Source: Neoroseomonas oryzicola (lineage in GTDB: Bacteria > Pseudomonadota > Alphaproteobacteria > Acetobacterales > Acetobacteraceae). From it: a stretch of 64,000 nucleotides of DNA. Below are positions 3,021 to 4,741 of this stretch, one piece after another. The DNA lies in contig NZ_JAAVUP010000005.1 of the NCBI RefSeq assembly GCF_012163135.1, positions 62,001-126,000 on the forward strand. The letters run 5' to 3'. The notes beneath the pieces are model-generated. The model saw nothing but the letters and a program-made list of their open reading frames with translations. It did no database searches and had not been told where the DNA came from. Both the position numbers and the translations under genes were made by a program. Numbering within the stretch: position 1 is the first letter of the stretch; every line of letters begins with the position of its first letter.

Positions 3021-3091
3021 CGATCTTACTTAAATTAAGAATCGGATTTGTCATTCGCCGCCTGGCTTACTCATGCTAAGAAATTGGCATG
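3021..3091 (+). promoter_or_regulatory. Palindrome cluster before and over the pyruvate kinase start
   Basis: The short gap before the HTH-pyruvate kinase gene is markedly AT-richer than its surroundings and holds several inverted repeats. These are CTTAA-A-TTAAG at 3029-3039, CTTA/TAAG arms at 3066-3069 and 3077-3080, and CATGC-N10-GCATG at 3072-3091, the last overlapping the ATG at 3089. A TTGTCA hexamer at 3048 could be a -35 element, but no convincing -10 follows. Just upstream, TAAGGGCGCG is repeated in tandem (3001-3020). The arrangement is compatible with an operator bound by the gene's own HTH domain; that is inference. Confidence 0.45.
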
Positions 3092-4741
3092 CGAGACCCA
3101 GCCCTCGAAGACCTCTTCGCCCGCCGCGGCGCCATCACCCGGATCGCGACCGAGCTCGGCATCTCGACCGCCGCCGTGTCGCAATGGAAGCGGGTGCCGG
3201 ACGACCGGGTGGTGGACGTGGCCCGGATCCTCGGCGTCGCGCCGACCGCCATCCGCCCGGACCTCACCGCCCCGCCGGCGCCGCGCGCCGATGCCCCGGC
3301 CGTCCGCATGGCCCCCCGGCCGGTGTTGCGCCGCCGCCGGCGGACCAAGATCATCGCGACCCTCGGACCGGCCTCCTCCAGCCTCGAGGTGATCGAGCGA
3401 CTGCATCGCGCCGGCGCCGACGTGTTCCGGCTTAACTTTTCCCATGGCAGCCACGAGGACCACGCCGCCCGCATCGCCACGATCCGGGAGGTCGAGCGCC
3501 GCGTCGGCCGCCCGATCGGCATCCTCGCCGACGTGCAGGGCCCGAAGCTCCGGGTCGGGAAGTTCCAGGCCGGGCGGGTGCAACTGCAGACCGGTCAGCC
3601 CTTCCGGCTCGACCTCAATCCGACGCCCGGCGACGTGCGCCGGGTGAACCTGCCGCACACCGAGATCATCCAGGCGGCGCAGATCGGCACGACTCTGCTG
3701 CTCGACGACGGCAAGCTGCGGCTGCGCGTCGTCCGCGCGCGCCCCGACCACCTCGAGACCGAAGTGGTCGTCGGCGGCCCGCTGTCCGACCGCAAGGGCG
3801 TCAACGTGCCGGACGTGATCCTGCCGATCCCCGCCCTGACCGAGAAAGACCGCGCCGATCTCGACTTCGTCCTTCCGCTCGGCATCGAATACATCGGCCT
3901 GTCCTTCGTGCAGCGCGCCGAGGACGTCGCCGAGACCAAGCGCATCGCCGATGGCCGCGCCTGGGTGATGGTGAAGATGGAGAAGCCGCAGGCGGTCGAG
4001 AACCTCGACGCCATCCTGGAACTGACCGATTGCGTGATGGTGGCGCGCGGCGACCTCGGCGTCGAATTGCCGCCCGAGGAAGTGCCGCTGGTGCAGAAGC
4101 GCATCGTCCGCGCGGCACGCGCGCTCGGCAAGCCGGTCGTCGTCGCGACGCAGATGTTGGAATCGATGATCACCGCGCCCTCCCCCACGCGGGCCGAGGT
4201 CAGCGACGTCGGCACGGCGGTCTTCGACGGGGCGGATGCGGTGATGCTCTCGGCCGAGACGGCCGCGGGCCAGTATCCTTACGAAGCGGTCAACATGATG
4301 GACCGCATCGTCGCCCGCGTGGAGCAGGACCCGGATTGGCGGCGCATCACCGACGCCTCCCGGCCCCCGCCCGAGAAGACGAGCGCGGGCGCGATCTCCA
4401 CCGCCGCCCGCCAGGTGGCCGAGACGATCGATGCGGAGGTCATCGCGACCTTCTCCTCCACCGGGTCGACGACGCTGCGTGTGGCGCGGGAGCGGCCGAA
4501 CTGCCCGATCCTCGGCCTGACCGCGAGCGGCCAGACCGCGCGGCGCATGGCGGTGGTCTGGGGCGTGCACCCGCTCGAGGTGAACGAGATCCACTCCATG
4601 ACCGAGATGGTCGCCCGCGCCGTGCGGGCCGCGCAGCACGAAGGCTTCGCCAAGAACGGCGACGAGGTGGTGGTCACCGCAGGCGTGCCCTTCGGCACGC
4701 CGGGGACGACGAATGCGCTGCGGGTGGCGGTGGTGCGGTAG
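3089..4741 (+). CDS. Pyruvate kinase with N-terminal YdaS/Cro-type HTH domain
   Basis: A 550-residue protein in one frame. Residues 8-58 form a Cro/YdaS antitoxin-like helix-turn-helix: GAITRIATELGISTAAVSQW, then a second half ending in the typical RPDL. A proline/alanine linker (59-80) leads to a complete pyruvate kinase of normal length (about 470 residues). It has FRLNFSHGSH (113-122), the catalytic lysine in KMEKP (296-300), GDLGVELP (321-328), QMLESM and TRAEVSDV (355-374) and SAETAAGQYP. It converts phosphoenolpyruvate and ADP to pyruvate and ATP. The only other candidate start, ATG 3308, has no ribosome site and would leave the HTH as an untranslated open frame, so the fusion appears real. 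It follows the glycerate kinase gene and resembles TtuE in context. A possible DNA-binding or autoregulatory role is inference. Confidence 0.88.
   Translation: MRDPALEDLFARRGAITRIATELGISTAAVSQWKRVPDDRVVDVARILGVAPTAIRPDLTAPPAPRADAPAVRMAPRPVLRRRRRTKIIATLGPASSSLEVIERLHRAGADVFRLNFSHGSHEDHAARIATIREVERRVGRPIGILADVQGPKLRVGKFQAGRVQLQTGQPFRLDLNPTPGDVRRVNLPHTEIIQAAQIGTTLLLDDGKLRLRVVRARPDHLETEVVVGGPLSDRKGVNVPDVILPIPALTEKDRADLDFVLPLGIEYIGLSFVQRAEDVAETKRIADGRAWVMVKMEKPQAVENLDAILELTDCVMVARGDLGVELPPEEVPLVQKRIVRAARALGKPVVVATQMLESMITAPSPTRAEVSDVGTAVFDGADAVMLSAETAAGQYPYEAVNMMDRIVARVEQDPDWRRITDASRPPPEKTSAGAISTAARQVAETIDAEVIATFSSTGSTTLRVARERPNCPILGLTASGQTARRMAVVWGVHPLEVNEIHSMTEMVARAVRAAQHEGFAKNGDEVVVTAGVPFGTPGTTNALRVAVVR

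Follow-up and report, generated by a model that had tools for sequence, protein, structure and literature searches.

The pyruvate kinase gene (pyk) of Neoroseomonas oryzicola, contained in the 64,000-nucleotide stretch of DNA analysed here (the window), encodes a helix-turn-helix (HTH) of the phage Cro type and a full-length pyruvate kinase in one polypeptide, and is preceded by two copies of a conserved palindrome, CTTA-N7-TAAG. Within the sets examined, such paired palindromes are restricted to the fused genes. The fusion protein is likely to be an active pyruvate kinase and at the same time, through an HTH captured from a phage Cro, the repressor of its own gene, acting probably also at pckA (PEP carboxykinase).

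Fusion of a Cro-type HTH to pyruvate kinase

The gene forms a single open frame for 550 amino acids with an ATG start and no internal stop, and its parts are as follows.

3089..4741, forward strand: pyk, HTH-pyruvate kinase fusion, 550 aa (open reading frame, Pfam and TIGRFAM scores; the genome's only PF00224 match)
3089..3262, forward strand: P22-Cro-type HTH, residues 1-58 (Pfam scores, selection, profile match to 1rzs; AAVSQW is residues 28-33)
3263..3328, forward strand: Pro/Ala-rich variable linker, residues 59-80 (mean entropy 1.93; pooled pN/pS 0.49)
3338..4291, forward strand: pyruvate kinase barrel domain, residues 84-401 (Pfam)
4391..4726, forward strand: pyruvate kinase C-terminal domain, residues 435-546 (Pfam)

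Both kinase domains were assigned to pyruvate kinase, PF00224 with 374 bits at residues 84-401 (cut-off 30) and PF02887 with 126 bits at 435-546 (cut-off 28), and the fusion protein gave 505.6 bits with TIGR01064 (cut-off 306.4). The single PF00224 match in the whole genome (5.3 Mb, 99.6% complete) is this fusion, which suggests that it is catalytically active. The N-terminal domain scored with PF14549 (P22_Cro; cut-off 30.2) 36.3 bits as the isolated N-terminal 77 residues and 29.7 bits, slightly below the cut-off, within the whole protein, and in the genome search 29.2 bits at pyk, or 36.1 bits with the neighbours in frame; no other P22_Cro match above the cut-off was detected elsewhere in the genome by this profile search. 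The likeness of the HTH to P22 Cro and DicC (PF14549) is one of sequence, its profile matching the solved structure of P22 Cro (1rzs) with an E-value of 3e-7. The sequence-only reading had described a YdaS/Cro-type HTH joined in one frame to a full pyruvate kinase. The joining was confirmed by the reading frame, by Pfam and by conservation in relatives; of the family name, the Cro part holds in the form of P22-Cro-like, and the YdaS part was abandoned at 23.8 bits or less with PF15943 (cut-off 30), P22 Cro-type being the better name. The YdaS label is present on many deposited relatives, and the carph-isopro profile (NF046037) gave 22.7 bits with this HTH (cut-off 38), below its threshold.

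Among the best 120 of 7999 scored deposited relatives, 115 carried both P22_Cro and pyruvate kinase labels. A total of 80 loci were kept out of 530 relatives found in the genome collection, and 62 of these were fused, 17 were unfused and one (L080) was cut off; the 62 loci and the window make up the 63 fused genes treated below. Of the named relatives among these loci, Neoroseomonas marina is the closest (L026, 98%). Recurrence of the same architecture in deposited relatives and genome loci rules out a sequencing or frameshift error as the source of the join. Purifying selection acts on the HTH. Over 13 chosen pairs, the pooled pN/pS was 0.16 in residues 1-58, compared with 0.49 in the linker and 0.085 in the kinase, and the helix AAVSQW was invariant in all 63 fused genes. 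The low pN/pS of residues 1-58 also rejects the HTH as a chance reading of upstream DNA. Orthologs consistently starting at residues 74-85, named by the sequence-only reading as evidence against the fusion, were seen in some annotations only: public entries of 475-477 residues exist (P0043, P0067, P0076), and the two whose sequences were read start near residue 74-76. The short public annotations for N. soli and N. terrae are probably truncated, because the DNA of both species (L005, L011) encodes residues 1-550 in frame.

In a sample of the order, a pyk match was found in 245 of 250 genomes and at least 44 alignments began at residue 1; these genomes partly repeat named species (L179 is identical to L070, and L163 to L081) and are not independent samples. 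On a quick tree of the kinase core with 101 rows (100 labelled), in which 33 of 96 inner branches are open, the fused/unfused label needs four changes, and one gain of the fusion followed by about three losses is one possible history among several. In a survey of the class (385 genomes, five of the same family including the own genome), residues 1-126 were covered, among the matches listed, only by the own genome; the match in G481 (residues 18-125) was read as having no HTH, and the other long partial matches, in G626 and G761, each contained an internal stop.

Paired palindromes at the predicted pyk promoter

Upstream alignments and motif counts identified two predicted operators, and an alignment anchored on the second of them indicated putative promoter elements by eye.

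3025..3039, no strand assigned: predicted operator 1, CTTA-N7-TAAG
3054..3059, forward strand: predicted -35 element, TTCGCC
3066..3080, no strand assigned: predicted operator 2, CTTA-N7-TAAG, beginning 23 bp before the ATG
3077..3082, forward strand: predicted -10 element, TAAGAA (consensus TAAGNT), 17 bp after the -35 element

Within 130 bp upstream of the 63 fused genes there were 91 perfect copies of CTTA-N7-TAAG, versus none, either perfect or at 7/8 positions, upstream of the 17 unfused loci. Other spacers between 0 and 15 gave 0-6 perfect sites each in the fused set except for spacer 12 with 28, an excess read as an extra (third) TAAG beside operator 2. With the threshold lowered to 7/8, spacer 7 gave 123 matches in the fused set and the others 2-29 except for spacer 12 with 58; at this level the unfused loci had no match at any spacer from 0 to 15. 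After removal of upstream regions at least 80% alike, 47 were left, and in these operator 2 was sought 20-26 bp before the ATG and operator 1 35-46 bp further up, with a threshold of 7/8. Of the 47 regions, 43 had operator 2 and 40 had operator 1; in 37 both were present, at a distance of 37-42 bp that was exactly 41 bp in 24 cases. The eight bases of the half-sites were nearly invariant in this alignment, the last base of operator 2 being C in some regions, and the 7-bp spacers varied except for a preference for A or T in the middle of operator 1.

The same association was observed in the tree set, where the best site matched at 8/8 in 60 of 65 fused genes, at 7/8 in three and at 6/8 in two, versus 8/8 in none of 35 unfused genes, 7/8 in two (L074, L170) and lower in 33. 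Poor sites despite an HTH were seen in L053 and L180 (best 6/8) and in L054, L070 and L179 (7/8; L179 repeats L070). In the order sample, which overlaps the named species, a site of at least 7/8 was found for 13 of 14 fused versus one of 26 unfused genes. A sign test on the tree had four independent contrasts with all branches and one with the well-supported branches, which puts significance out of reach.

In the fused loci, the 715,564 bases outside the upstream stretch contained no perfect CTTA-N7-TAAG. The count in the whole genome was not above the control (four versus five for the reversed motif), and two of the four lie at pyk; the looser STTA-N7-TAAS occurred five times in 5.3 Mb versus 32 for the reversed control, twice at pyk and once upstream of pckA. 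The operator pair was found once in the whole genome (control 0). Among 21 genomes of the genus, 2-6 perfect sites were counted in each versus 5-43 for the reversed control. In the 64-kb window by itself, two sites with one mismatch or less were reached in 16 of 100 shuffles and are not rare by chance; what argues for operators is therefore their conservation, their position and their occurrence together with the domain. A palindromic site beside the own gene, as is expected for the P22_Cro type, is present at pyk.

The predicted -10 element overlaps the right half of operator 2. A weakly conserved -35-like block, TGGC, lies 17-18 bp ahead of TAAGNT in the alignment on operator 2; the final T of TAAGNT is conserved in 37 of the 46 rows of the alignment and absent from the window, whose -10 element (TAAGAA) is weaker than the consensus. 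Because operator 2 covers this predicted element, a bound protein would block the polymerase, and repression is the likely sign of control. Between positions -18 and -4 (15 bases) of the 63 fused genes, AGGAGG was matched at no more than four of six positions (scored without a control set), as expected from a leaderless mRNA, and we infer that the pyk mRNA begins at or near the ATG. With conserved palindromes in the 3021-3091 DNA, the earlier suggestion of a moonlighting regulator is upheld as a prediction for its own gene. The proposed control of the glycerate kinase pathway is not supported, since the sites lie behind the gene which the reading had so named (ending at 2996) and ahead of pyk, and glycerate kinase was rejected as a target.

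Origin of the HTH and a parallel fusion

With residues 1-73 as the query, 14 short relatives were found. One of these Cro-like sequences, P0127, is 62% identical to the window HTH and is found, itself identical, on three viral contigs; CTTAGACATGCTAAG, a site of the same kind as the pyk operators, is located at -23 before it on all three, and as the sequences agree they count as one observation. One of these contigs (L355) also carries a divergent XRE-type gene. Matches to P0127 were obtained in 106 of 397 genomes of the family, many of them pyk fusions, others stand-alone genes and some fusions of the TorD or CcdA type, and 34 non-pyk loci were read (22 stand-alone; 12 TorD-, CcdA- or coiled-coil-type fusions). 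All nine stand-alone genes with the helix AVS[QK]W had TTA-N7-TAA at -23 or -24 before the presumed start (L199 and L200 are near-identical, and L208 and L209 come from one genome), versus one of the other 13, at -33 (L214), the helix classes having been defined visually, with the sites already known. The motif was absent upstream of the 12 fusions of other types and from four more distant viral matches. In the three neighbourhoods read, those of L199, L201 and L205, a divergent XRE-type repressor gene, identified by reading, adjoins the stand-alone gene. DicA and DicC act as CI and Cro (PMC10448788). The stand-alone relatives of P22 Cro/DicC type have a divergent XRE-type neighbour where read and, in many cases, a palindrome at -23 or -24; the window HTH differs from P22 Cro and DicC in being fused to an enzyme and in lying before metabolic genes instead of in a lysis-lysogeny switch. 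The most likely origin is the capture by pyk of a phage cro, along with the promoter and self-operator of that gene.

The HTH had also been called antitoxin-type, and this did not stand, its nearest stand-alone relatives being phage Cro-like; an antitoxin origin was rejected because the stand-alone genes read adjoin a divergent XRE-type gene, the three contigs with the closest relative are classed as viral, and four CcdA-like fusions are without the motif. The same HTH family is joined to a TorD/nitrate-reductase-delta-like chaperone in same-family genomes (L193-L196, L204, L225; L193 by Pfam, the rest by reading) and to a CcdA-type antitoxin domain (L202, L203, L206, L226; L202 by Pfam, the rest by reading). 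A relative in Komagataeibacter phage phiKM1 has a different helix (VTPGAVCQW), and TTA-N7-TAA is absent upstream of it, where another palindrome was seen by eye; this Cro-like frame (L361; LC644974.1, 7111-7287) lies beside an annotated XRE regulator and is itself unannotated in the record.

The own genome contains a second fusion of this kind, in which a carph-isopro HTH (NF046037, 66.4 bits, cut-off 38) is joined to CarA, the small subunit of carbamoyl-phosphate synthase. Like pyk, it has an N-terminal HTH on a metabolic enzyme and paired palindromes about 39 bp apart, and it differs in the enzyme and in the operator, TGGGAA-N5-TTCCCA. HTH-CarA was matched in 58 of 60 genomes of the family, and the 30 best were examined as loci (L118/L251, at G000 C12:410230-410958, and L252-L280), candidates for a second enzyme-repressor. 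All 30 had TGGGAA-N5-TTCCCA at 9/12 or better near the CarA start, and 27 had a second copy 36-44 bp (once 50 bp) further up, typically about 39 bp. At 11/12 or better, spacer 5 gave 43 sites and other spacers 0-1, with the motif drawn from the same loci, and none was found in 105,451 other bases. Among seven late-starting CarA matches, five had an in-frame HTH and two sites, G146 had neither, and in one the contig ended. Enzymes equipped with their own HTH and a paired operator thus seem to have evolved on two or more occasions.

Predicted self-control of pyk and candidate control of pckA

In the mechanism proposed, an HTH dimer would bind CTTA-N7-TAAG, and the two sites at the pyk promoter, about four helical turns apart, would be occupied with the downstream one over the predicted -10 element. 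Pyruvate kinases are usually tetramers; one tetramer could thus offer two pairs of HTHs and occupy the two sites simultaneously, so that a sufficient amount of enzyme would shut its own pyk promoter. The same protein probably also binds the pckA site, linking the enzyme that consumes PEP with the one that forms it.

The pckA site, which was noticed in the genome scan before its conservation was tested, is located 179 bp ahead of pckA, a gene identified by reading, and falls inside the 3' end of the preceding gene. The pckA gene was recovered from 22 of 23 genomes of the genus and from 29 of 30 in the set of other genera and unfused relatives (G019 gave none). It is probably the second target of the fusion protein; that the HTH controls pyk only, and that the pckA sites are coincidental or those of another regulator, appears rather unlikely, with evidence on both sides. 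A perfect site is present at -178 to -194 in 11 of the 22 genus genomes, where it has been kept within a coding sequence with TTA, a codon rarely used for leucine (12 times out of 2854 in the 63 pyk genes); the site is missing in the other 11, namely G074 and G103 with GC-rich codons and nine more, and its position differs between genera. In nine of 17 fused genomes of other genera, TTA-N7-TAA was located no more than about 200 bp from pckA, in eight of them in the form CTTA-N7-TAAT, the right half of which coincides with a TAAT shared by some unfused relatives (G121, G097), and when CTTA-N7-TAAG was sought at 7/8 over 400 bp before pckA one unfused genome (G160) matched too. Against coincidence, the core TTA-N7-TAA upstream of pckA was present in 20 of 39 fused versus none of 12 unfused genomes (Fisher p = 0.003 for other genera and 0.0015 for all, relatedness ignored) and is specific to spacer 7, the other spacers from 3 to 12 giving 0-2 per group.

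A box resembling GTAACC-N4-GGTTCG, perhaps belonging to another regulator, precedes the Cro-type pckA site in several genomes (e.g. L295, L297, L317, L319). A further site in G000 lies inside a sugar-isomerase-like gene (L085; named by reading), and CTTATGGGCCGTAAC, at L346:1501-1515 (G000 C1:1003693-1003707), is located shortly before a gene for an Fnr/Crp-like regulator (by reading), a possible further target.

Three other readings concern pyk itself. The HTH might have lost DNA binding and be kept as a structural, oligomerising or allosteric appendage; this is very improbable, given the invariant AAVSQW under purifying selection and the upstream palindromes, which accompany the domain and agree with those before its stand-alone relatives, even if DNA binding by the fused HTH is a prediction and a few fused genes have poor sites. 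The palindromes might instead be operators of another, unlinked regulator, having arrived with the captured cro promoter, since promoter and HTH could be inherited together and a phage CI-type partner shares the operators of Cro (PMC10448788). From genus to genus, however, the half-sites are almost unchanged although the promoter around them has diverged, which calls for a resident binder, the obvious one being the HTH itself, and the genome has no other P22_Cro match above the cut-off; this alternative is hardly to be expected either. Somewhat less improbable, and compatible with the preferred reading, is the formation of two products, the full-length fusion and a kinase without the HTH from an internal start near residue 74: Met74 is found in 43 of the 63 fused genes and some public annotations begin near there, but it is not kept in 20. 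Autorepression by the fused HTH is thus the reading retained, and the self-control of pyk is very probably real, a well-supported prediction from the DNA evidence. As a bolder and tentative extension, a real possibility and not yet a probability, the protein may be a self-sensing PEP-pyruvate switch, in which the tetramer would bridge the operators with four HTH arms, a kinase shape altered by metabolites would alter DNA binding, and both pyk and pckA would be set in this way; together with CarA it may represent an unrecognised class of core metabolic enzymes that captured phage-type HTHs with paired operators and so acquired direct feedback at the level of the enzyme.

NadR is a bifunctional enzyme-repressor. 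PutA and BirA are described as moonlighting enzymes and DNA-binding regulators (PMC6978683). Like these trigger enzymes, the pyk fusion combines an enzyme and a DNA-binding part in one polypeptide with candidate sites at related genes, a likeness found at the level of sequence, and it differs in its components, with pyruvate kinase as the enzyme and a phage Cro for DNA binding. BzdR, an HTH-XRE domain fused to a shikimate kinase-like domain, senses benzoyl-CoA and has no detectable kinase activity (PMC3602430); in both cases an HTH was recruited by a kinase, whereas the window fusion keeps the full kinase and is the genome's only pyruvate kinase gene. No paper on a DNA-binding pyruvate kinase or on carph-isopro was recognised in searches of one open-access library.

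Pyruvate kinase is one of the control points of glycolysis, and the open-access library searched yielded no report of this enzyme directly controlling a gene. The present case would be one of a phage repressor and its operator turned into a metabolic feedback loop, and it offers an exact test system, in which the domain and the 15-bp site are both defined and relatives occur in nature that have neither. The parallel of HTH-CarA suggests that such capture has taken place more than once.
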